From assembly GCA_947259315.1 (NCBI GenBank), contig CAMYLR010000006.1, positions 9,655 through 73,654 of the forward strand: a DNA stretch of 64,000 bases. The letters are read 5' to 3'. This DNA is from an uncultured Gemmatimonadales bacterium. Lineage in GTDB: Bacteria; Gemmatimonadota; Gemmatimonadetes; JACCXV01; JAHWKZ01. The notes beneath the pieces were generated by a model, which saw nothing but the letters and a program-made list of their open reading frames with translations, was not told where the DNA came from and did not search any database. The number at the start of each line of letters is the position of its first letter. The stretch's first letter is position 1. A program made the position numbers and the translations under genes. This document shows, one piece after another, positions 15,002 to 47,516 of the stretch.

Positions 15002-15007
15002 ATTATA
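15002..15007 (-). promoter_or_regulatory. Possible -10 element (TATAAT) of hpf inside the rpoN stop
   Basis: The minus strand reads TATAAT across the last rpoN codon and its TAA stop, 63 bases before the hpf ATG. The matching -35 is poor (TTCCTC at a 17-base spacing). It could give hpf-PTS transcription independent of rpoN, but one perfect hexamer is weak evidence. Confidence 0.3.
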
Positions 15008-16397
15008 CGCGTTTGCGATACCGTGAGGAAAGGATCCCGAGCTGATCGCGGTACTTCTGAACCGTGCGACGGGCGATGTTGACGCCCTCGCCATGGAGTA
15101 GCTCGACGATCTGCTGATCGGTCAATGGCTTGCGCGGGTCCTCCTCGTGGATCATCTCCGAGATTCGGGCTTTCACGCCTCGCGCCGAGACGCTCTCACC
15201 CTCCTCGGTCGAAAGCCCGCTCGAAAAAAAGAACTTCAACCGGAATACGCCGCGTGGTGACTGCACGAATTTCTCATTTGTCACCCGACTTACGGTCGAC
15301 TCATGCATGCCGATCTCGTCAGCTACTTCCTTCAGGGTCAGCGGCCTGAGGAACCGAATGCCCCCGTCAAAGAACTCTCGCTGACGATCGAGGATCACGT
15401 ACATGACCTTGAGCATCGTCTGACGACGTTGCTCGATCGCCTGAATGATCCAGTTGGCACTATTGAGCTTGCTTTGAGCGAATTCCTTCGCGCGGCCCTT
15501 GAACTCACCATTTCGAGCTAACTGTTGGTAGGTGTTGCTTATCCTGAGCCGCGGAAGATTCCCATCGTTCAGAGTTACAACAAACTCGCCATCCACTTCT
15601 TCGACCACGATGTCGGGAGTAACGTAGTTGGGTGGTAGATCGACATACTTCCGACCTGGCTTTGGGTTCAGCATCGCGATCTCGTCCGCCGCGTCCTGCA
15701 CCTCAACCGGTGTAATGCCCATAGCGCGCGCAATGTCGTGGTACTTGTGCGTGGACAACTCCTCGAAGTACAAGTCCACTATGCGGTAGGCGAGGCTGTC
15801 GGTGCCCATGCGCTCTGCGATCTGCAACAACAGGCACTCTCGCAGGTCGCGCGCAGCCACCCCGGTCGGGTCGAAACTCTGTACTCTCTTTAGCGCGCGC
15901 TCTACCTGGTCCGTTGGCACGGAGATGGACTCAGCGATGTCTTCGAGCGGACAGGTTAGGAAACCATCCTCGTTGATGTTGCCAATAATCTCCTCCGCGA
16001 TCTGCACCTCTCCATCAGCGTAGCCGTTGCTCTGATGGAGCTGCTGAAGGAGGTGGCTCCATAAATCGACACTGGTTTGCGGAACACGCTCGTACGATTC
16101 GATGTCTTCATGATTTGAGCCGCTGCGGTAACCGGAATCGAAACCGTCGAGCAGCACCTCTTCCCAATCGATCTCGTCTTCTTCCTCTTCTTCCGGTTCT
16201 TCGGCTTCTTCTTCCTGATCAGCGAACTCTTCCTCGGGCTCACTCATCTCGAGGAATGGATTGGCTGTCAGTTCTTGTTTGAGGTGCTGTTCGAGCTCGA
16301 GGAGGGGCAGATACAACAAATCCATCGCCTGATACAGGCGTGGATTCATTCTCATCTCTTGCTTCTGGCTTATGGCCAGCTGTTGTTTCAGTGCCAT
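15003..16397 (-). CDS. rpoN: RNA polymerase sigma-54 factor
   Basis: 464 residues. Region I is Gln/Leu-rich (LAISQKQEMRMNPRLYQAM, LLELEQHLKQELTANPFLE). An acidic linker (EEEFADQEEEAEEPEEEEE) follows, then the core-binding domain, an HTH (LKEVADEIGMHESTVSRVT) and the RpoN box ARRTVQKYRDQLGI near the end. It directs RNA polymerase to -24/-12 promoters and needs AAA+ activators such as the NtrC-type regulator at 37.5 kb. Upstream are both a sigma-70-like and a sigma-54-like promoter. The order lptA-lptB-rpoN-hpf matches E. coli. Confidence 0.97.
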   Translation of the reverse strand: MALKQQLAISQKQEMRMNPRLYQAMDLLYLPLLELEQHLKQELTANPFLEMSEPEEEFADQEEEAEEPEEEEEDEIDWEEVLLDGFDSGYRSGSNHEDIESYERVPQTSVDLWSHLLQQLHQSNGYADGEVQIAEEIIGNINEDGFLTCPLEDIAESISVPTDQVERALKRVQSFDPTGVAARDLRECLLLQIAERMGTDSLAYRIVDLYFEELSTHKYHDIARAMGITPVEVQDAADEIAMLNPKPGRKYVDLPPNYVTPDIVVEEVDGEFVVTLNDGNLPRLRISNTYQQLARNGEFKGRAKEFAQSKLNSANWIIQAIEQRRQTMLKVMYVILDRQREFFDGGIRFLRPLTLKEVADEIGMHESTVSRVTNEKFVQSPRGVFRLKFFFSSGLSTEEGESVSARGVKARISEMIHEEDPRKPLTDQQIVELLHGEGVNIARRTVQKYRDQLGILSSRYRKRV

Positions 16398-33099: not shown

Positions 33100-33309
33100 T
33101 CACGCGCCGGCGTCGTGCGCCAGGCGGCTGGCGATCAACGCAAACTCCCGCGCCAGTCGGCGCCGGTCGACCGGCGTCAGCGTAGGATCGTCGGGATAGC
33201 GCCGAACGTACTCCTCGAGAAGCTCGCGCTCCTCGTGGTTGAGATCGATTGAAGAATCGTTCAACCACCGCATCGCGAGCTCAAGCTTGGTTGACCCGGG
33301 GCCGGCCAT
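33100..33309 (-). CDS. Small conserved-looking protein upstream of murJ
   Basis: 69 residues from the ATG at 33309 (GTG one codon and TTG two codons before it are possible). Composition is helical and charged: RWLNDSSIDLNHEERELLEE, YVRRYPDDPTLTPVDRRRL. No signal or membrane segment is seen. It ends 10 bases before murJ and heads the 33-kb minus-strand run. I do not recognise a family. Support rests on position, sensible composition and length; no clear ribosome site is visible. Confidence 0.5.
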   Translation of the reverse strand: MAGPGSTKLELAMRWLNDSSIDLNHEERELLEEYVRRYPDDPTLTPVDRRRLAREFALIASRLAHDAGA

Positions 33310-33368: not shown

Positions 33369-33407
33369 GTGCAGCCCGAAGGCTGCGCTGGTGCTCCGCG
33401 GCTGCAC
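33369..33407 (+). promoter_or_regulatory. Dyad cluster, candidate enhancer for a sigma-54 activator
   Basis: GTGCAGCC (33369-33376), GGCTGCGC (33381-33388) and GGCTGCAC (33400-33407) form two overlapping inverted repeats: GCAGCC-CGAA-GGCTGC, and GTGCAGCC paired with GGCTGCAC across 23 bases. They lie about 120 to 82 bases before the predicted start point, where NtrC-type activators usually bind. Confidence 0.5.
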
Positions 33408-33461
33408 TTTTCGCGTAATCGTGAACGTGCTAACCAGTTGATAAACAAGCACTTGAGAATT

Positions 33462-33478
33462 CAGGCACGAGCATTGCT
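33462..33478 (+). promoter_or_regulatory. Predicted sigma-54 promoter of the TPR/TonB-receptor operon
   Basis: CAGGCACGAGCATTGCT matches CTGGCACGN4TTGCW with a single mismatch (A for T). GG is at 33464-33465 and GC at 33476-33477, ten bases apart. The start is expected near 33489, giving a ~42-base leader to the ATG at 33531. An NtrC-type activator gene lies 4 kb downstream in the same direction. Confidence 0.7.
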
Positions 33479-33530
33479 TAGGGCCGTGGCAGAACCACGC
33501 AAGAGCCACGACTCCAACCGTGAGGAAGAC

Positions 33531-36119
33531 ATGAGCAAACCGTTCAGTGCCACCACCGCCGTGATGATGCTGGTGCTATTCTCGGCGGTCAACGTGAACG
33601 CCCAACGCGATGCGAACGCAGCATTCGCTTCACTCGATGCGTGCGCCGCTGCCGCAGAGGCCGAGGACGAGTCGAACGCCATCACCCTCGCCGATCAGGC
33701 TGAAGAACAGTTCCAGGGTTGGCTCAAGCTCGAACCAGACAGCCCTGATGCGCGAACTGGATTGGCTCGCGTCATGCTTCAATGTCGCGTCCCGTTTCTC
33801 GCGCTCATGGAGCAGGGAGCGTTGTCAGCCCAGGCGACAGGTATTCTCCGCGAGGCGCTCGAGCTCGACTCGACCCACTGGGGTGCCCGCTACACGCTAG
33901 CCCTCAACTTCTACTACTCACCAGAGTTCCTGGGCCTAACACGCGACGCGATTCGGGAGTTCGAGACGCTCCTCGAGCAACAGGGGACACGTACGGACGA
34001 TCCTCAGATGGCGGGCCCATTTGCCTACCTCGGTGATCTCTACTTGCGAGAGAAACGGACGGAAGACGCACATGAAGTGTGGCATCGAGGGGCCCAGCTT
34101 TTCCCCGCCGACGACCAACTCCGGGAACGGCTCGATGGGATCGCCGGCGGTAGCAAGACCGGCAATGAGGCAGACGAGAGCGATCGGAGGGTGGGTGCGG
34201 CTGATGCCGCGCCCACGGCCGGAGACGCGACAAGACCCGAGATCGATTACGAGGCCGATCCGCTCCTAGTGCAGGTCGAGAGCGGCTACCAGATGGAGGA
34301 TACTCGTAGCCAAGCGACGTTGAGCCGCCTGGATGTGTACATGACACCCGGTGGCGCGGCGGACATCCTCCAGGTCTTCCAGACACTGCCCGGGGTGACT
34401 CGCGCTTCGGAGGGTAGCGAGCTGTACGTTCGGGGTGGCGATCCGGCGGAGACGCCGGTCTACGTCGAAGGTGGTCGACTACTCTACTCCGGTGTGTTCG
34501 AGACCTTCAACGGCAGTGTGTTCGGGATTCTCGACCCCTCGGTGCTCCGCAAAGCGTACTTCTCGAGCGGCGGCTTCTCGGCGCGCTACGGGAATGCGCT
34601 CTCCGGCGTCGTCGATCTCGAAACCGACCGCCGGCCGACCGTATCGACGTGGCGAGCGGGCGTCAATTTCGCGGGCGGCGGAGCCACGTTGCGGAAGCCG
34701 ATCTCGAAGCGAGCCGGCGCTTGGGCCTCGCTGCGGTTTACAGAGACCTCTCTTCTGCTTCGGCTCCACGACCAGGCGAACGACTATCAGTCGTTCCCCC
34801 GGTCGCTGGAAGGCGTGGCGAGCTGGGTCTACGAACCGCGGCCGGGGATCGAGCTGAAGGCGCTCGCGCTCGGACAAACCGACACTGCTGATCGCATCAT
34901 CGACGCCATCGGGTATCGCGGAGCCTTTGGGGTCAGCGGTCGCACAGCGCTGGGTCTATTCTCAGCTCGGGTGCTACGAGACGACGCCGACGCAGCCTTC
35001 CACACGACCGTCTCGTGGACAGAACACAAGAGCGATTTCGAGTTTGGGGCGCTTGATCGTGATCGCTCCGACCGGAGCCTCGCTATTCGTGTCGCCGGTG
35101 ATATCGCCCCTGGTCTGCGAAACCACCTTCGCGCCGGATTCGAGGCGACCCGCCTGTCTACAACCGAGCGTGGCCGTGTGCCCACGACCGAACAGCTGGC
35201 GCCTGGGTCACCGACCGAAGCCCTACCGGGGGTAGACGATAAGAGCCATCACCTGGGCACCTTTGTCGAGAACGAGTTTCGACCGGTGCCCGCCCTCGGA
35301 CTGACGGTTGGGGCCCGCATCGACCGCCTCCCTGGCGAGAATTCCTGGACGGTGGATCCGAGATTTGCGTTCGCATACCGGATCGGAGATTGGACGTGGC
35401 GGTTGGGTGCGGGCGAGTTTCAACAAGGTCGCTGGCGCGTGGGGTACGATCTTCCCGATGGCGGCGCACCCGCAGGAACACCCCGCCGGGCGCGGCATTA
35501 CGCCGGCGGCCTCGAACACGACGGGAACTTGTACGCCAAAGTGGAGGCCTATCGCAAAGAGTACGACCGCTACGTCCCGGATGGCGACGGGCCGCCGATC
35601 GATGCCGGCAAAGCCACAGGGGTCGACCTGCTAGCCAAATGGATCGGGAGCGAACACTGGGACGGCTGGGTTAGCTATTCGTATCTAAGGAGTCGCGTGG
35701 AACTGGTCGACGGTCGCACGGTCTCCGCAGAGTACGACATACCACACACGCTAACCGCTGTGGGCCAGGTCTATTCTGGCTCCTGGAAGCTCGGCGTCAC
35801 CGCTCGCTACGCGACAGGTCGACCGTTCACGCCGATTCTCGGCGCGCAGGATCAGGGCAACCGCGACGGGTTCCCCGAGCCCCTGTATGGCGAACCGTCC
35901 GGCGCGCGTCTCGACGACTATTTTCGACTTGACGCCCGTATAACACGCTTCGTCAGCCTCTCCAGCGGTCTGCTGGTAGTATACCTCGAGTTGCTCAACG
36001 TCTTGGATCGCGACAACGTTTCGAGCATCGTGTACGATGCGAAGTTCGAGAACCCGCGGCCGGTCGAATCGATCTTCGCCCAACGCACCGCGGTCGCTGG
36101 GATTGAGCTCCAGTTCTGA
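33531..36119 (+). CDS. TonB-dependent receptor with TPR-like periplasmic N-terminal region
   Basis: 862 residues from the ATG at 33531, preceded by GAGGAAGAC; about 94 more codons are open upstream but run through the promoter. A signal peptide (ending NVNAQ) is followed by ~190 residues of TPR-like helices (AEEQFQGWLKLEPDSPDAR, ILREALELDSTHWGARYTL, AYLGDLYLREKRTEDAHEVW). Then come a plug domain (DILQVFQTLPGVTR, ELYVRGGDPAETPVYVEGG, GFSARYGNALSGVVDLE) and a 22-strand-type barrel ending VAGIELQF. The ligand is unknown. It is the first gene of a unit with a sensor kinase and a sigma-54 activator. Confidence 0.85.
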   Translation: MSKPFSATTAVMMLVLFSAVNVNAQRDANAAFASLDACAAAAEAEDESNAITLADQAEEQFQGWLKLEPDSPDARTGLARVMLQCRVPFLALMEQGALSAQATGILREALELDSTHWGARYTLALNFYYSPEFLGLTRDAIREFETLLEQQGTRTDDPQMAGPFAYLGDLYLREKRTEDAHEVWHRGAQLFPADDQLRERLDGIAGGSKTGNEADESDRRVGAADAAPTAGDATRPEIDYEADPLLVQVESGYQMEDTRSQATLSRLDVYMTPGGAADILQVFQTLPGVTRASEGSELYVRGGDPAETPVYVEGGRLLYSGVFETFNGSVFGILDPSVLRKAYFSSGGFSARYGNALSGVVDLETDRRPTVSTWRAGVNFAGGGATLRKPISKRAGAWASLRFTETSLLLRLHDQANDYQSFPRSLEGVASWVYEPRPGIELKALALGQTDTADRIIDAIGYRGAFGVSGRTALGLFSARVLRDDADAAFHTTVSWTEHKSDFEFGALDRDRSDRSLAIRVAGDIAPGLRNHLRAGFEATRLSTTERGRVPTTEQLAPGSPTEALPGVDDKSHHLGTFVENEFRPVPALGLTVGARIDRLPGENSWTVDPRFAFAYRIGDWTWRLGAGEFQQGRWRVGYDLPDGGAPAGTPRRARHYAGGLEHDGNLYAKVEAYRKEYDRYVPDGDGPPIDAGKATGVDLLAKWIGSEHWDGWVSYSYLRSRVELVDGRTVSAEYDIPHTLTAVGQVYSGSWKLGVTARYATGRPFTPILGAQDQGNRDGFPEPLYGEPSGARLDDYFRLDARITRFVSLSSGLLVVYLELLNVLDRDNVSSIVYDAKFENPRPVESIFAQRTAVAGIELQF

Positions 36120-36161
36120 TGCCAAACCACTCTAGCCTTGGGATCCACGCCGTACGCTGAG

Positions 36162-37535
36162 ATGGAGTACCCAGTCGCCACCGCCATCACGTTCTTTGCA
36201 CTGGGCGTCAACTTTCTTGGCGGGGTGGTCCTGTTCCTGCTCAACCCCCAGAGCCGAAGCGTGCGGTGGTTCATGCCGTTCCTGTTAACGATTCTGCTCT
36301 GGCTTTTCGGTCAGGGATGGGCGTTGCTCACTGGGACCCTCGGGCCGATCGCCGACGTATTCATCGTCGGCATCCATTTAATGCCCGGCTTCTTTCTCAT
36401 GTTCGCCCTCGCTGACGGCTACAATTGGGGCTTTCCGAAGATCCTCGCTCCGCTCGCGATCGGCTCGTTGTTGCTGCCACGAGTCTACGGGGTCGAGTTG
36501 GACCAGTTTTCAGATCCCGTTCAGCTCGCCTGGCAGGTTGGTGGTTGGGGTCTTGGATCTGTGGTCATGGCTAGGTGCGGCCTGCGGCACCGGTTGACCG
36601 CTGGGACCGGCAGTCTCTACCAACGACTCGTATCCTTGATACTGCTGCTCATCGCTCCGCTCGTTGTGGTCGGCGGAGTCGTCGTGGGTGCCGAGTTCTT
36701 CTTGTACACGATGCCCCTGCTTACGGTCATGCTTCATGTCTTATTGTTTGTCGGGGTCGTCTTCTGGCGGTTCTACGACATCGAGGTGCGGGCAGCCCGG
36801 AGCGGCGAGATCGCCACTCAAGCCGCCGAGCTCGAGCGCATGGCGGTAGTCGGCGAGCTAACCGCCTCATTCGCTCACGAAGTACGCAACCCGCTGACGG
36901 GGGTTCGTTCATTGGCCCAGCGACTGGCTGAGGAGGACATCGCCGATGACAGCCGACGCCGCTACGCTGGCGTGATCGTGCGCGAGGTCGAGCGCGTAGA
37001 ACAGATCGTCGCTCAGCTGCTGGGCGTAGCGCGGCGACGCAAAACTCGATCCGAGAGCGGGGCTGTGACCCAGCTGGAGCCGTTGTTCGAGGATCTTCGG
37101 CTTCTGCTCGGGTCGCGGGCATCAAAGTCGGGGGTGTCGCTCAACGTCGACCCCGCAGGACTCGCGGTCAGGGCAGCACGGGAACACGTCGCGCAGGCTC
37201 TGCTGAACCTCCTCCTCAACGCGATCGATCACTCCCCACCCCAGGGCCGCGTCGAGTTGGCGGCCGAGCAGGTGAACGGCGCTGACACCATCACCATCTA
37301 CGTCCGAGACGAGGGACCCGGAATTCCCCAAGCCGATCGCAAGCGGATCTTCGAGCCCCTGTACAGCAGCGCCGAAGGAACCGGTCTCGGTCTATCAGTG
37401 GTTCGTCGTCTCGCCGTCGACCTCGGTTGGGAGGTCGAGATCGGTGAAGCAACCGGCGGAGGAGCCGAGTTTCGATTGTTGATCCCGTCCCCTGCAAAGC
37501 CGATTGCAGCGGTGGATCCCCAGCCGACGTCGTGA
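36162..37535 (+). CDS. Membrane sensor histidine kinase (NtrB/HydH-like)
   Basis: 457 residues from the ATG at 36162. The first ~205 residues hold about seven membrane helices with no large periplasmic domain, so the signal may be sensed in or at the membrane. HisKA: GELTASFAHEVRNPLTG (His239). HATPase: N-box NLLLNAIDHS, G1 DEGPGIP, G2 GTGLGLSVV. The stop overlaps the activator gene as GTGA. The gene lies 42 bases after the TonB receptor; it probably reports on the receptor's substrate or on envelope state, which is inference. Confidence 0.93.
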   Translation: MEYPVATAITFFALGVNFLGGVVLFLLNPQSRSVRWFMPFLLTILLWLFGQGWALLTGTLGPIADVFIVGIHLMPGFFLMFALADGYNWGFPKILAPLAIGSLLLPRVYGVELDQFSDPVQLAWQVGGWGLGSVVMARCGLRHRLTAGTGSLYQRLVSLILLLIAPLVVVGGVVVGAEFFLYTMPLLTVMLHVLLFVGVVFWRFYDIEVRAARSGEIATQAAELERMAVVGELTASFAHEVRNPLTGVRSLAQRLAEEDIADDSRRRYAGVIVREVERVEQIVAQLLGVARRRKTRSESGAVTQLEPLFEDLRLLLGSRASKSGVSLNVDPAGLAVRAAREHVAQALLNLLLNAIDHSPPQGRVELAAEQVNGADTITIYVRDEGPGIPQADRKRIFEPLYSSAEGTGLGLSVVRRLAVDLGWEVEIGEATGGGAEFRLLIPSPAKPIAAVDPQPTS

Positions 37536-38899
37536 GAATCCTCATCGTCGACGACGAACCGGCGATCCGACTCGCGCTACTCGAGATCGTCGAAGCCGCC
37601 GGACACACCGGCCGAGAAGCCCCTGACGGCGCTACGGCCTTGGCCGCTCTCGACGGGCAATCGGCTGACCTCATCCTCGCCGATCTGCGAATGCCCGGCA
37701 TCGACGGGCTCGAGCTACTGGACCGAGTCAAGGAGAAGCATCCCGACACGCTATTTGTCTTGATCACCGCGTTGGGCGACGAGCGAACGGCGGTCAGAGC
37801 GCTCAAGGCCGGTGCGTACGACTACGTCCCAAAACCGTTTGACAACGAGGAAATCCGATCGATCCTGGAGCGCGCTTGGGAAGTGCTCTCGCTGCGAGCC
37901 GAGAATCGGAGACTGCGTGAGGAGATCGCGACCGAGTACCGGGGCATGATCGGTGATTCCCCGGCGATGCGGGAAACGGCGGCCTTCATCAAGCGGGTCG
38001 GCCCGACCGATGTAACCGTGCTCATCACCGGCGAGAGCGGCACCGGAAAGGAACTCGCCGCACGCGCCATTCATGCCGAGAGTCAGCGCCGGGGAGAACC
38101 CTTCATCCCACTCAACTGCTCTGCCCTCCCGGGGGAGTTGATCGAGAGCGAGCTCTTCGGTCATGCGCGAGGCGCATTCACAGGAGCGGATCGTGACCAC
38201 GATGGTCTCTTTGCAGCTGCTCATCGCGGAACCCTCTTTCTGGACGAAGTCGGCGATTTGGCTCTGGCGGCTCAGGCGAAACTTCTTCGGGCACTCGAGG
38301 AGGGTTGCGTCACTCCGGTTGGCTCGACGACTTCGAGACCGGTCGATGTGCGGTTGCTGGCAGCCACCCATCGTCCGCTCGCCTCGATGGTTGACGATGG
38401 CGCCTTCAGGCAAGACCTGATGTTTCGACTTCAGGTCGTTGAGCTCGCTTTGCCTCCACTTCGTGAGCGGCGCCAGGACATCTCTGTCTTGAGCTTGCAC
38501 TTCATCGCTGAGCTCGCAGAGCGACATGGTCGTTCGGCTCGCCCGCTGAGCGATCAGGCTAAGCGAGTGCTGACGGCGTACGACTGGCCCGGTAATGTCC
38601 GCGAGTTGCGGAATGTCCTCGAGCGAGCGGTTCTGTTGAGCGACACGGAAACGATCGAAGTCAGTGATCTGCCCGAAGCACTGACCACCAGCGAAGGACC
38701 TTTGCGACCGGTTGATGCAGCTATCGCCGAGTACCCGTACCATGAGGCGCGCGATCGCGCGTTGGCCGCATTCGAGCGGTCGTTCCTAGGCGCGGCGTTG
38801 GAACGCCACGGAGGCAATGTGTCGGCGACCGCGCGCTCTCTCGGGTTGCATCGGCAATCGCTCCAGAAGATGATGCGCCGACTCGACCTCACGCGCTAA
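37532..38899 (+). CDS. Sigma-54-dependent response regulator (NtrC family)
   Basis: 455 residues. The receiver has the acid pocket VDDE and phospho-acceptor Asp51 (LILADLRMPG). The AAA+ domain has Walker A GESGTGKE, the sigma-54-contacting loop GAFTGA (214-219) and Walker B GTLFLDEVGD. A Fis-type HTH is at the end (GGNVSATARSLGLHRQSLQK). All parts needed to activate sigma-54 polymerase are present. The GTG start overlaps its kinase as GTGA. The likely target is the -24/-12 promoter at 33.46 kb, possibly also those at 16.46 and 4.28 kb. Confidence 0.96.
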   Translation: MRILIVDDEPAIRLALLEIVEAAGHTGREAPDGATALAALDGQSADLILADLRMPGIDGLELLDRVKEKHPDTLFVLITALGDERTAVRALKAGAYDYVPKPFDNEEIRSILERAWEVLSLRAENRRLREEIATEYRGMIGDSPAMRETAAFIKRVGPTDVTVLITGESGTGKELAARAIHAESQRRGEPFIPLNCSALPGELIESELFGHARGAFTGADRDHDGLFAAAHRGTLFLDEVGDLALAAQAKLLRALEEGCVTPVGSTTSRPVDVRLLAATHRPLASMVDDGAFRQDLMFRLQVVELALPPLRERRQDISVLSLHFIAELAERHGRSARPLSDQAKRVLTAYDWPGNVRELRNVLERAVLLSDTETIEVSDLPEALTTSEGPLRPVDAAIAEYPYHEARDRALAAFERSFLGAALERHGGNVSATARSLGLHRQSLQKMMRRLDLTR

Positions 38900-38921: not shown

Positions 38922-39803
38922 ATGAGCTCCCTGTCTGATGCCCAGGCCGCGTGCTTTGAGCTCGCCCGCACCCATTACGAGAACTTCCCGGTCCGGTCTG
39001 CGCTGCTCAACAGACCCGAGCGAGAGGATCTGGCAGCGATCTACGCGTTCTGTCGTACGACCGACGATCTCGGTGACGAGTTTCCGGGCGACCGCGTCGC
39101 AGCACTCGATGCGTGGGAGACGGCAGTTACATCCGCGTTAGCGGGTCAACCACCGGCCGATGAACCCGTTCTCGTAGCGCTAAGCCAGACCACCAGCCGG
39201 CGCGAGATACCACCCGACCTCTTTCTGAGGATCGTCGAGGCCAATCGTCGCGACCAAACCGTGCACAGTTACGCCGACGCGGATGCGTTGCTCGAGTACT
39301 GCAGCTACAGCGCTACGCCCGTCGGTCGGATGGTCCTGACGGTAATCGATCATGGGCAGGGACAAGAACCGCTCTCGGACGCGACATGCATCGGGCTCCA
39401 GCTGGCGAACTTCTGGCAGGACTTGAGACGCGACTGGGATAAGGGTCGCTGCTACCTGCCGCTCGACGCCTGCGCCCGACACGGGGTGGATCCCAGCGTG
39501 GAGCTCGGTCGCGCGACCGCCTCGCCGGCGCTTATCGATCTGGTAGAAGAGCAGGTCGAATCCGCGCGCCGGTGGCTGCAGAAGGGGTGGTCGTTAGCTG
39601 ACGCGCTGCCCGTCCGGTGGCGGCCCATCGTCCGCGGTTTTACACGCGGCGGATGGGCGATCTGCGACGCGATCGAAGCTCGCGGGTTCGATACCCTGCG
39701 TGATCGACCGGTCGTTTCTCGCAGAGCGCGGACAGCCATCATCATCAACGAAATGCTTCGGGCCCCGCGTCGCAGCGTTCGACTCAACACGACACGATCA
39801 TGA
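38922..39803 (+). CDS. hpnC: Hydroxysqualene synthase-type protein HpnC
   Basis: 293 residues of the squalene/phytoene synthase family. Aspartate-rich motif 1 is CRTTDDLGDEF and motif 2 is NFWQDLRRDWDKGR, followed by YLPLDACARHGV. In the HpnCDE pathway it converts presqualene diphosphate to hydroxysqualene. It begins 22 bases after the activator gene and overlaps hpnD as ATGA, so it may belong to the upstream unit. Confidence 0.92.
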   Translation: MSSLSDAQAACFELARTHYENFPVRSALLNRPEREDLAAIYAFCRTTDDLGDEFPGDRVAALDAWETAVTSALAGQPPADEPVLVALSQTTSRREIPPDLFLRIVEANRRDQTVHSYADADALLEYCSYSATPVGRMVLTVIDHGQGQEPLSDATCIGLQLANFWQDLRRDWDKGRCYLPLDACARHGVDPSVELGRATASPALIDLVEEQVESARRWLQKGWSLADALPVRWRPIVRGFTRGGWAICDAIEARGFDTLRDRPVVSRRARTAIIINEMLRAPRRSVRLNTTRS

Positions 39804-40672
39804 GCGCGATCACCATGACACCGATCGTGGCCGCCGGGTACGAGGCGTGTGAGGCCGACACGCGTCGATGGGCGCACAATTTTGGACTTGGTATCCGACT
39901 GTTGCCCCCCACGCGGCGGCGCGCGCTGTCAGCCGTTTACTGGTTTAGCCAGCGCGCGGATCAAGCTGTTGATAGCGATGGTACGCGGGAGGAGAAAGAG
40001 CAGCGTCTGGAAGCGCTGCGCGGTGCGCTCGAGCAGTCGGTGACCGGTGAGCCACCCGACCCACGGTGGGCCGCGCTCGCCCACGCGACCGACAGATTCG
40101 AGATCCCACCCGAGTTGTACCGGCAACTCCTCGATGGCGGCGCCAGCGATCTCGACCCGCGCACGTTCGAGGATTGGGAGGCGGTGCTCGGTTACTGTTA
40201 CAGCGTGGCCAGCGTGGTCGGCCTGATCGCACTCAGAATCTTTGGCGGGAGTGGCCGCGAGTCGGCCGCCGCAGCCGAGGAGATTGGATACGCACTCCAG
40301 CTCACTAACATTTTGCGCGACGTGCGCGACGATGCCGGCAACGGCCGATGGTATCTGCCGCTCGAGGAGAGCGATCGGTTTGGCGTCACTGCTGCTGCTG
40401 TCGCGCAGGGTCGCGCGGAATCCGGATTTGACGCGCTGGTACACTCCGTTACCGAGCGGACACGGCGATACTACAGCGCCGGACCGCGGCTCTATCGGCG
40501 TCTACCGCGTTCGACCCGAGCCTGTCCAGCGGCTCTGGTCGGTGTTTACCGGGGTTTGCTCGAGCGGATCGCGGCCGATCCCAAGTCCACGCTTCGCGGC
40601 GAAGTACGGCTCGCGGGCACATCCAAGCTTCGCTCTGGTCTGGGGTCGGCAGCAGCGGCCATGTTCTCTTGA
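39800..40672 (+). CDS. hpnD: Presqualene diphosphate synthase-type protein HpnD
   Basis: 290 residues. Motif 2 is intact (LQLTNILRDVRDDAGNGRWY). Motif 1 reads FSQRADQAVDS where the family normally has D-D-x-x-D; the second Asp is Gln here. It should join two farnesyl diphosphates to presqualene diphosphate. ATG overlaps hpnC (ATGA) and the stop overlaps hpnE (TTGA). The operon order supports HpnD over a plain phytoene synthase. Confidence 0.9.
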   Translation: MSAITMTPIVAAGYEACEADTRRWAHNFGLGIRLLPPTRRRALSAVYWFSQRADQAVDSDGTREEKEQRLEALRGALEQSVTGEPPDPRWAALAHATDRFEIPPELYRQLLDGGASDLDPRTFEDWEAVLGYCYSVASVVGLIALRIFGGSGRESAAAAEEIGYALQLTNILRDVRDDAGNGRWYLPLEESDRFGVTAAAVAQGRAESGFDALVHSVTERTRRYYSAGPRLYRRLPRSTRACPAALVGVYRGLLERIAADPKSTLRGEVRLAGTSKLRSGLGSAAAAMFS

Positions 40673-42051
40673 ATCGAACTCCGCCTGGTCAATTGTCGGT
40701 TGTGGTTGTGGGCGGCGGGCTGGCCGGTATGGCCGCGGCACTAAAGCTCGCGCACGCAGGGTACCGGGTGACGCTCCTCGAGCGGAGACCGTTTCTCGGC
40801 GGCCGAGCGTACTCGTTTGAGGACCCTGACACCGGTGCTGAGATCGACAACGGTCAGCATATCCTGGTCGGTGCATGCTCCCGACTGCGGGGGTTTCTCG
40901 ATGCGATCGGCGCTCCGGCGAGCGCGTTTGTGCGTCAACGCCGGCTCGGTGTCACGATTCTGGATCCGGATGGCCGTCAGGCCACATTGGCAGCCGCATC
41001 GCTTCCAGCCCCGCTCCATATGGCGGCGGCCGTGCTCCGCTATCGACATCTCGATTTTCGCCAACGAGCAACTGTTGCGCGGGATGTGCGCGCGTTGGCA
41101 CATCTCGACAGCAACGCGTGTGCGGATCTCGAGAGCATCCCGTTTGGCGATTGGCTCGCGGCTCGAGGCGCAACGGCAGCCTCGATCGAGCGGTTCTGGG
41201 ATCCGCTGGTGCGGCCCGCGCTCAACGTGGCAGCCAGCGAAGCCAATGTCCCGCTAACCGCCTTTTTTGTTCGCGAAGCTTTGTGGGCGGGCCCCCATGG
41301 CGGCGCCGTCTGGTTACCGTCGGTCGGACTCACGCGGGCGATCGGGGAACCTGGACGTCTAGCACTCGAGGGAGCGGGCGTTGTCGTCAAATTCAGCACC
41401 CGGGTCGAGACGGTCGAGACCGGCGATCGAGGTGTCACGGGTGTCCGGTTAAGGGAGGGCGAGCGCATCGAGACGACGAACGTCGTGTGTGCGGTACCGC
41501 CCGAAGCGTTAGAGCGGATTCTCCCCGCTAGCGCCCGTCCACCGACGGGCTATACCGGAGTCGGGACCAGCGCGATCGTGAATGTCTATCTCTGGTACGA
41601 CCGACCCATCACGGACCTCGATTTTGCCGGCACGTTCGGGTCTGATCTGCAATGGATATTCAATCGCTCGCAGCTCCTCGGGGCTCACGCAGCGGGACAT
41701 TGTCTCGGGGTGTCGCTGAGCGCTGCCAACGAGTGGGTCGACATGCCAAAGGAAGCGCTAGCGCGGCGCTGCGATCGAGCCGTCGAGCGTATGTTTCCGG
41801 CTCGCCGCAGCGCCGAGTTCATCAGCTCAGCCGTCGTCAAAGAGCCCCGTGCGACATTCCGTGCCGGACCAAACGTAACTCCCTACCGGCCCGGTCCGAT
41901 CGGCGCGATTGATGGTCTGTATCTGGCTGGCGACTGGACCGATACTGGTTGGCCGGCCACGATGGAGGGGGCTGTCCGCAGCGGGGAGAGCGCGGCAGAA
42001 GCGATGTTGGTGCAACAACGCTCTACTACGGGGGCCGCGCTGATCCGGTGA
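40669..42051 (+). CDS. hpnE: Hydroxysqualene dehydroxylase HpnE (FAD amine-oxidase family)
   Basis: 460 residues. The Rossmann FAD motif is VVVVGGGLAGMAAALKLAHA, with LLERRPFLGGRAYSF and a C-terminal DGLYLAGDWTDTGWPATMEGA. It reduces hydroxysqualene to squalene in the HpnCDE route. The start is TTG at 40669 overlapping hpnD as TTGA. No squalene-hopene cyclase is in the window, so the end product (hopanoid or free squalene) is open. Confidence 0.92.
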   Translation: MNRTPPGQLSVVVVGGGLAGMAAALKLAHAGYRVTLLERRPFLGGRAYSFEDPDTGAEIDNGQHILVGACSRLRGFLDAIGAPASAFVRQRRLGVTILDPDGRQATLAAASLPAPLHMAAAVLRYRHLDFRQRATVARDVRALAHLDSNACADLESIPFGDWLAARGATAASIERFWDPLVRPALNVAASEANVPLTAFFVREALWAGPHGGAVWLPSVGLTRAIGEPGRLALEGAGVVVKFSTRVETVETGDRGVTGVRLREGERIETTNVVCAVPPEALERILPASARPPTGYTGVGTSAIVNVYLWYDRPITDLDFAGTFGSDLQWIFNRSQLLGAHAAGHCLGVSLSAANEWVDMPKEALARRCDRAVERMFPARRSAEFISSAVVKEPRATFRAGPNVTPYRPGPIGAIDGLYLAGDWTDTGWPATMEGAVRSGESAAEAMLVQQRSTTGAALIR

Positions 42052-45078: not shown

Positions 45079-46350
45079 TTATCCTTCCAGATCCACCCAA
45101 CGAATGAGGTCGGCGAGCGTCGGTCGACCATCCCGTCGCCAACTGAGCGGCGGTCGCTGCATTGCGCCAAGGAGCGAAATGCGCTCGACGCCGGCCATCG
45201 ACAGCGGCCCGACGACGTCCCCAAACCGCTGGTCGGGAGCCGCGACTCCAACGGTGGCGATCGATCCCTTGCACCCGGCACATAAGCGAATCGACTGATC
45301 CACACCGTCGACGGGTACCAGCGCAAGAAACCGCGGCACGGGAGGCACCGACGGCGCTTCCGACTGGCCGCGCGCGACTACCGTCCACGGAGCATCGAGA
45401 TCGCCTGACCACCGGCTGGCAAGCCCAGCCGATGTCTCGACATCCATGAGCGATCGCCATTCGCCGAATGCCGCCCGCTCGCTGGTGCTCGCCTCGCGTC
45501 GTGGAGGGGACGGCCAGCGGTCGATGCAAGCTCCCAGCAGCGGCTCGACGAGCGGCGCCAGCTCGTCGGAGGAGCCCTCGACGAACGCGGTTACCGGAGA
45601 GAGACACCCCATCTGACCCGCAAACGCTGTGTCTTTTGCCAGCGCATCGATGACCCGACCCCGATTCTCTGTCAATGCCTCGCGCGTGACCAGAGCGACC
45701 GACAGCCGTGGACCGTGAACGATCACGCTGGTACCCGGATTGACGCTCGATCGCAATCGCCGCACCGTGTCCTCGCGACCGGTCGCGATCACTGTGGTAG
45801 CGGCACTGAGGACCGACTCTCGTCCATCGGGTGAATCTGGCCAGGCGGAAACCACCACTGCCGCACCGAGATCGGAGTCGTCATCCCCAATGGACGCCGC
45901 GAATCGCGCTGTCAGGTCATCGGTCTCAGACGCTGGCTTGAGCCACACCGGCGCCTTGACCAGTAGGGCTGAGATAATATCGGTGATCGGAGTGGTTGGG
46001 ACGCCATGCGCCGCCACCGCCACTACCAACTCCGGCCCGACCGCGAGCCGCGAGCTTGAACCGTTTGCCACGAACCCGTCCAGAACCCCCGTGCTACCAA
46101 GCTCTCCACTTACCCAACCTTCGAGGGAGTCACGAGTCCAGCCGCTGAACGCAGCGTCCAGCACCTCGACGATCGACGGCCTCGGCACCTGGTAGTGCGC
46201 CGCCAACGCTTCGATCGCCGCACGCCGCACTGACCAATCATCGTCGCGCCATTTGGCACACACAGTTGCCAAGCCGTCTATGATCTCACTGGTCGGCCGT
46301 GTCTTGAGACGCTGACCGGCATCGACAAGACCAACCACTCGCTCGTCCAT
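45079..46350 (-). CDS. LuxC-like acyl-CoA/acyl-protein reductase
   Basis: 423 residues from the ATG at 46350, with GAGGGG upstream. It resembles the LuxC acyl-reductase family of the aldehyde-dehydrogenase fold: VAVAAHGVPTTPITDIISAL, KAPVWLKPASETDDLTARF and a candidate catalytic Cys in FAGQMGCLSPV. LuxC reduces a fatty acyl group held on an acyl-protein synthetase to aldehyde with NADPH. Its neighbour 8 bases upstream is LuxE-like, which strongly supports the pairing. No luciferase luxAB or luxD is in the window. The aldehyde's use is unknown. Confidence 0.8.
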   Translation of the reverse strand: MDERVVGLVDAGQRLKTRPTSEIIDGLATVCAKWRDDDWSVRRAAIEALAAHYQVPRPSIVEVLDAAFSGWTRDSLEGWVSGELGSTGVLDGFVANGSSSRLAVGPELVVAVAAHGVPTTPITDIISALLVKAPVWLKPASETDDLTARFAASIGDDDSDLGAAVVVSAWPDSPDGRESVLSAATTVIATGREDTVRRLRSSVNPGTSVIVHGPRLSVALVTREALTENRGRVIDALAKDTAFAGQMGCLSPVTAFVEGSSDELAPLVEPLLGACIDRWPSPPRREASTSERAAFGEWRSLMDVETSAGLASRWSGDLDAPWTVVARGQSEAPSVPPVPRFLALVPVDGVDQSIRLCAGCKGSIATVGVAAPDQRFGDVVGPLSMAGVERISLLGAMQRPPLSWRRDGRPTLADLIRWVDLEG

Positions 46351-46358
46351 CGCGCCCC

Positions 46359-47516
46359 TCACCCCTGCTCGAGCCACAGCTCGGCCGCCAGCGAGCACCC
46401 ACGAGCCTCGGCGCTGGGCTCGCGTCCGCGCAGCAAGACGCCGCCATCGGCAGTGCGCTCGCCCACGTCGCTCGTCTGCACGCCAACCGCACTGGCGCGG
46501 TTGGCGAGATCGAAGTGCACCAGTGCTCCGACCCTGCCGGGCTCTAGCTCGGCTCCGGTCTCAGAGTCCATGACCATTACCCGCGCCCACGGGGGAACGC
46601 GAAACCCCACTCGAGGACGATCGCGGTCCCCGACAGCCTCCGTTCGCAGCCGCTCGTCGTAATACTGAGTCGATAACTCGGTCATCCCATACTCTTCCAC
46701 CTGGTAGTCCATGGGCACACCGAGCCGGGCTGTGATCGAGCTCCCGATCGCGTGGGGATCGGTTTCCCGAAGCGCACCTTTGAACCCTCCGGTAACCATC
46801 GTACGGCTGCACGCAGGTAGCTGGTGCACGTGTGAACCGAGCGCCGCCAACGCGTTGTGGAACGCCAACGCGGTACCGGCGACCAAAACCGGCTCGCCTT
46901 TCTCCTCGGCGTCGTCGAGCGCGGCGATCAGCTCCTCCAACCGCAAGCCACCCGACGGCGATCCTGACAAGAAGAAAGCGCTCCCCAGATCGCCGAACAC
47001 CTCTCGGTAGACCGCGAACATGTGGACCAGCGAGGAGTCGGGAGCTTCGGCCGGTGAAGGCGATAGGAACAAACACCGGATTCGCTCCCGATCCGGAAAC
47101 AGAAAGCGCCGCGCGGAGGAAATGATCGCTGCGTTGTACAGCGCTAAGGTGTCAAACCGATGCACGCCGGGCGTGCGTTGGACAGTCCCAGAAGTGCGGA
47201 AAGCGGCCGCCTCGCGCTGTTCCGGAAAGGTAGCCCATCGTCCGACCTTGAACGCCCCGGTTGGCACCGGCGGAATCTGCTTCCAATCCGCGACATCACG
47301 CGGCGCGCTGACACCGCGCAGCGCACAGAACTGACGGTAAACAGGATTGAAGCGAAACTGATGCGCGAAAATATCCCGCGCCAACTGATCGAACCCAGAC
47401 GCGTCGATCGGGTCCAGCCAACCGCTTCCGACCGCATGCAGGATCTCGGCGTCGAGCCGCTCGGCCTCTTCCTGGCGAGCCTTCTCGCGCGGCGAGAGCG
47501 CGGCCGCGCGGGTCAC
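46359..47516 (-). CDS. LuxE-like acyl-protein synthetase
   Basis: 385 residues, in line with LuxE (~370) and with the adenylating-enzyme superfamily. Features: FRFNPVYRQFCALRGV, DVADWKQIPPVPTGAFKVGR, AAFRTSGTVQRTPGVHRFD (phosphate-binding loop), YQVEEYGMTELSTQYYDERL and LVHFDLANRASAVGVQTSDVG. LuxE activates a fatty acid and carries it as a thioester for LuxC. The GTG start is one base after the queE stop. The substrate is unknown. Confidence 0.85.
   Translation of the reverse strand: MTRAAALSPREKARQEEAERLDAEILHAVGSGWLDPIDASGFDQLARDIFAHQFRFNPVYRQFCALRGVSAPRDVADWKQIPPVPTGAFKVGRWATFPEQREAAAFRTSGTVQRTPGVHRFDTLALYNAAIISSARRFLFPDRERIRCLFLSPSPAEAPDSSLVHMFAVYREVFGDLGSAFFLSGSPSGGLRLEELIAALDDAEEKGEPVLVAGTALAFHNALAALGSHVHQLPACSRTMVTGGFKGALRETDPHAIGSSITARLGVPMDYQVEEYGMTELSTQYYDERLRTEAVGDRDRPRVGFRVPPWARVMVMDSETGAELEPGRVGALVHFDLANRASAVGVQTSDVGERTADGGVLLRGREPSAEARGCSLAAELWLEQG

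Follow-up and report, generated by a model that had tools for sequence, protein, structure and literature searches.

A predicted two-component sigma-54 circuit dedicated to a TPR-bearing TonB-dependent receptor operon in an uncultured Gemmatimonadales bacterium

The window analysed here, a 64,000-nucleotide stretch of one contig of an uncultured Gemmatimonadales bacterium, contains three consecutive genes encoding a TonB-dependent receptor, a membrane-bound sensor histidine kinase and an NtrC-type response regulator, preceded by a control region with two dyads and a putative sigma-54 promoter (Table 1). A sequence-only reading of this DNA had described the segment 33369-38899 as a TonB receptor followed by a membrane kinase and a GAFTGA-bearing NtrC-type activator. 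All three identities were borne out: that of the receptor by its Pfam domains, that of the kinase by its HisKA and HATPase domains and seven membrane helices, and that of the activator by its domain composition and by the GAFTGA motif at residues 214-219. The segment as delimited holds for these three genes, but it omits the adjoining hpnCDE genes, which may belong to the same transcript in family f1, the cassette family that includes the window.

Table 1. Features of the receptor-kinase-activator cassette and associated genes, in window coordinates
Feature	Position	Strand	Description
Enhancer dyad 1, GCAGCC-cgaa-GGCTGC	33371..33386	+	Half-sites GCAGCC 33371-33376 and GGCTGC 33381-33386; proposed main activator dimer site
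Dyad 2, weaker, GGTGCT-N4-GGCTGC	33390..33405	+	Right arm GGCTGC 33400-33405; left arm degenerate
AT-richer spacer	33406..33461	+	AT 0.59 vs 0.37 upstream in the window
IHF-consensus-like site TAACCAGTTGATA	33431-33443	-	Inside the spacer; suggestive only
Putative sigma-54 -24/-12 promoter AGGCACGAGCATTGC	33463..33477	+	GG 33464-33465, GC 33476-33477, exact GG-N10-GC; 9/10 consensus positions
TonB-dependent receptor, 862 aa	33531..36119	+	Signal peptide, TPR solenoid (~20-205), linker, plug, beta-barrel (Pfam, AlphaFold model)
Sensor histidine kinase, 7-helix membrane N-terminus	36162..37535	+	HisKA and HATPase (Pfam); model and topology
NtrC-type response regulator	37532..38899	+	Response_reg, Sigma54_activat, Fis HTH (Pfam); 4-base overlap with kinase gene
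hpnC-hpnD-hpnE squalene genes	38922..42051	+	NCBIfam
rpoN, sigma-54 factor	15003..16397	-	Intact; three domains AID, CBD, DBD

Pfam searches of the receptor identified TPR repeats, the TonB barrel (PF00593), which scored above cut-off, and the plug (PF07715) at 23.8 bits against a cut-off of 23.9, but detected no STN domain, the place of which is taken by the TPR repeats. Foldseek matched the receptor model to Fiu, Cir, BtuB and FecA; the plug region was modelled with low confidence. The plug and a 22-strand barrel, the strand number being borrowed from the fold matches, assign the protein to the TonB-dependent receptors, and transport is predicted on this basis. The fold gave no clue to the substrate, since many TonB receptors matched equally well at 10-15% identity, and a PDB sequence search with the TPR part returned no match. 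Translation was assigned to the ATG at 33531 because of the signal peptide and the alignment, and the TTG at 33249, which opens the longest reading frame, was judged to be wrong. For the kinase, the ATG at 36162 is likewise a likelier start than the TTG of the longest reading frame at 36138. Its modelled membrane part consists of seven helices connected by loops of 1-8 residues, with no periplasmic domain. Of 395 genomes of the phylum, 12 encode this sensor region, and each of these also carries the cassette.

The activator belongs to the NtrC family (bEBPs), as shown by the receiver phospho-Asp, the AAA+ domain with Walker A (GESGTGKE at 167) and GAFTGA, and the Fis-type HTH. Among NCBIfam equivalogs it scored highest on the models of ntrC (434.5 vs a cut-off of 558.6) and AtoC (429.6 vs 714), and it fell below every listed cut-off, including those of the PEP-CTERM regulator PrsR (382 vs 502.6) and ZraR (367.7 vs 760). 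The cassette activators form a single clade (support 100/99), separate from other NtrC-like regulators. A match to rpoN, which is intact in the window, was found in 14 of the 15 genomes tested, the remaining genome being 86% complete.

The hpnCDE genes start 23 bases after the activator in the window and ~60-140 bases after it in two relatives of family f1. No terminator-like site was found between 38899 and 38922, and the squalene genes may possibly be read through from the predicted sigma-54 operon of the cassette, in f1 only. A functional link between the cassette and the squalene genes was rejected, as their adjacency is confined to the three f1 genomes. The congener G011 lacks the cassette, hpnC and murJ altogether; absences in G011, G019 and G007 are uninformative because these genomes are only 55-88% complete. 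Two further reading frames were observed nearby on the minus strand: a plausible 69-residue ORF at 33100-33309 (MAGPGSTKLELAMRWLNDSS...), between murJ and the enhancer, for which the corresponding gaps at L134 and L135 look too short, and a homologue of LuxC-type acyl-CoA reductases at 45079-46398.

The sequence-only reading had placed before the receptor a promoter one base off consensus with an exact GG-N10-GC, and this was confirmed, with the exact core at 33464-33477 and a predicted transcription start at ~33489. An equally good exact GG-N10-GC located 40-120 nucleotides before the receptor start was rarely obtained by shuffling (p=0.0005). Across the window, TGGCACN5TTGC with at most two mismatches had 54 matches vs 54.3 expected, that is, no enrichment; since bare-motif counts are at chance level, the motif alone is no evidence and was not used as such. 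Position and conservation, rather than the motif by itself, are decisive for the promoter call, and sigma-54 dependence is predicted from a GG-N10-GC suitably placed before the gene. The positions of the three GCAGCC/GGCTGC half-sites proposed earlier were also correct, but they are better grouped as one perfect dyad, for which shuffling gave p<0.0005 (0/2000 shuffles), and a weaker second dyad that owns the third half-site. The right arm of dyad 2 lies 19-20 bp downstream of that of dyad 1 in seven loci (the window, L134, L135, L136, L139, L141 and L144), and the two dyads are predicted to be stacked dimer sites. Such conserved tandem dyads upstream of a promoter are the arrangement expected at targets of NtrC-family regulators, for which binding is predicted. 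The IHF-like site in the spacer is matched exactly in only 3 of 12 loci (the window, L136 and L143).

When 295 genomes of the class were searched with the receptor and the kinase, the two were found as a neighbouring pair in ~13 genomes, falling into families f1, f4, f8 and f9; the cassette is absent from many genomes of the class. Wherever the contig extends far enough, the activator adjoins the pair, with the exception of L136, in which the kinase and activator genes are separated by two ORFs (L136:5430-8006), one of them encoding a phosphodiester-glycosidase homologue (NAGPA domain). Compared with the window proteins, the cassette receptors are 40-57% identical, the kinases 43-52% and the activators 60-71%. 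The flanks differ per family (phosphodiester glycosidase, ApbE, a beta-lactamase-like protein, peptidase M1, relaxase), and the neighbours across families provided no common clue to the substrate. In G152, a gene for a MobA/VirD2-type relaxase lies close to the cassette (L139:8198-11275), a hint that this copy is mobile.

Cassette upstream regions align poorly outside the dyad and the promoter. The dyad is present in all 12 of them: ten copies are exact, and those at L139 and L143 each deviate at a single base. An exact GG-N10-GC occurs in 11 of the 12; L140 retains the dyad and has TG instead of GG at the canonical -24 place. The dyad centre lies 97.5-98.5 bp from -12 in f1 and 105.5-107.5 bp from it in the other families, except at L143, where the best-scoring dyad lies 87.5 bp from -12 and a degenerate dyad is found ~20 bp further upstream. 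Conservation of the GG-N10-GC and the dyads in relatives was the check named by the sequence-only reading, and both are kept, with little variation in spacing, at every locus that has the three genes.

Four related TPR-bearing receptors (L142, L148, L149 and L150) are encoded without the kinase and the activator, and neither the dyad nor GG-N10-GC was found in the upstream stretch tested at any of them, indicating that these control sequences accompany the activator gene rather than the receptor gene. The receptors at L142 and L149 adjoin a divergent TetR regulator gene and represent a case of regulatory replacement within one receptor family, which makes them a natural comparison for this process. 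Palindromic operator-like sequences (TGTTGACAGCGTCAACA) lie beside the divergent TetR gene at L142:8273-9024 and L149:9776-10677. At L150 (7595-10840), a receptor paralogue in G197 carries a duplicated N-terminal TPR domain, with no kinase or activator alongside.

These TetR neighbours lend some substance to another explanation, namely that the dyads bind an unrelated regulator such as a repressor and that the promoter is of the sigma-70 or ECF type, the GG-N10-GC being fortuitous. Promoter scores are indeed modest outside f1, and in 6 of the 11 loci other than that of the window the score alone is weak (7/10, p 0.09-0.19). Nevertheless, this explanation is highly improbable: dyad, GG-N10-GC and activator gene co-occur at near-fixed spacing, no sigma-70-like site was found in the cassette control region, and a scan of flanking ORFs identified no TetR gene next to the cassette. 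That the dyad is recognised by the co-encoded activator is deduced from co-occurrence only.

Exact dyad 1 is a single-copy sequence in the 2.4 Mb genome of the window, located at the cassette. With a tolerance of two mismatches in the 14-base dyad form, seven sites were found genome-wide vs 26 with a reversed-pattern control. None of the six sites outside the cassette has a convincing promoter at a suitable distance, the only GG-N10-GC among them (L196) being of chance grade (7/10), and additional dyad matches in other genomes are mostly without a promoter. NtrC-type regulators often have multiple targets, and the genome encodes five other clear sigma-54 activators, so the activator might be a pleiotropic sigma-54 regulator with the receptor operon as one of several targets, the others being reached through more degenerate sites. 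Given the single exact dyad, the smaller number of near matches than with the control and the lack of a convincing promoter at six of them, we regard this as quite unlikely. The absence of convincing promoters at dyad matches outside the cassette supports a self-contained circuit, the interpretation originally advanced for this locus, which also draws support from the conserved motifs, the comparison with receptors lacking kinase and activator, and the intact rpoN. A nutrient-sensing role, which the sequence-only reading also suggested, is conjectural.

The locus thus very probably encodes a dedicated two-component sigma-54 circuit for one receptor operon, probably with positive autoregulation. 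In the mechanism that we propose, the seven-helix kinase would respond to a signal at or within the inner membrane by phosphorylating the co-encoded NtrC-type regulator, dimers of which would occupy both the strong and the weaker dyad ~98 bp (105-108 bp in other families) upstream of -12. The bound dimers would oligomerise through their AAA+ domains and, with the DNA looping over the AT-richer spacer, contact RNAP-sigma54, which would form the open complex at 33463-33477. A single transcript would carry receptor, kinase and activator, and in f1 perhaps hpnCDE as well. As this predicted transcript includes the kinase and activator genes, we infer positive autoregulation; its content also suggests that the circuit serves mainly to produce a single TonB-dependent receptor with a TPR domain. 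Such a compact circuit, with one enhancer, one promoter and one activator, would be of interest in the little-studied phylum Gemmatimonadota, and a conserved cassette in which a sigma-54 two-component system serves one target would broaden the range of control logic known for outer-membrane uptake.

The source of the signal could also be the receptor itself, with the periplasmic TPR domain reporting occupancy to the seven-helix kinase, resulting in feed-forward receptor induction by a FecA-FecR-FecI-like relay to sigma-54. The extra N-terminal periplasmic domain sits where FecA-type receptors carry their signalling domain, and receptor and kinase are strictly co-inherited within the cassette. 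If true, this would add a third way in which a TonB receptor controls transcription, next to Fec-type signalling and the hybrid two-component systems of the SusC type. We consider it unlikely, as the kinase model offers no periplasmic domain, and the TPR domain with its two invariant cysteines is present in the TetR-adjacent receptors (L142, L149) as well. The occurrence of TPR in TetR-linked receptors implies that the domain probably has no link to the kinase and is probably not a kinase-signalling device. The receptor is not a FecA-type transducer, as Pfam detected no STN domain in it and the cassette contains no ECF pair.

Control of TonB receptors normally lies with Fur, ECF sigma/anti-sigma pairs or small regulators, and the type predicted here, by a sigma-54 two-component system, is unusual. 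Like FecA-FecR-FecI, the cassette has a TonB receptor that is inducible (here by prediction) and carries an additional periplasmic domain at its N-terminus; however, the cassette lacks ECF sigma/anti-sigma genes, carries TPR rather than STN, and employs a kinase and, as predicted, sigma-54. With NtrBC, AtoSC and ZraSR it has in common a kinase, an activator of receiver-AAA+(GAFTGA)-Fis architecture and tandem dyads ~100 bp upstream of a -24/-12 element, but it differs from them in an activator that scores under the listed NCBIfam cut-offs, a seven-helix kinase input restricted to the cassette and a TonB receptor as target. Dedication of a two-component pair to one TonB receptor is known from PfeR/PfeS of Pseudomonas aeruginosa, which controls the enterobactin receptor PfeA. 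PfeR is an OmpR-type regulator working with sigma-70, and PfeS has a periplasmic sensor domain; the cassette shares the one-receptor dedication and differs in its NtrC-type regulator and predicted use of sigma-54. Our search of the non-subscription literature found no description of a TonB receptor encoded together with a two-component pair of the sigma-54 type, and we claim no priority. In Bradyrhizobium sp. DOA9, a sigma-54 promoter has been predicted ahead of a TonB receptor for Ni/Co (PMC13207237), and TonB is among the predicted sigma-54 targets in Flavobacteriia (PMC12316311). Both systems, from other phyla, resemble the present one in the sigma-54 motif at TonB uptake genes, and the passages on these predictions describe no dedicated co-encoded kinase/activator pair. 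In Pseudomonas, FleQ binds near TonB receptor genes (PMC6120874). NtrYX of Paracoccus denitrificans is an NtrC-family two-component system that affects several TonB transporters (PMC9409073), but its effect on iron homeostasis is global, whereas the circuit predicted here comprises one cassette with its own enhancer.
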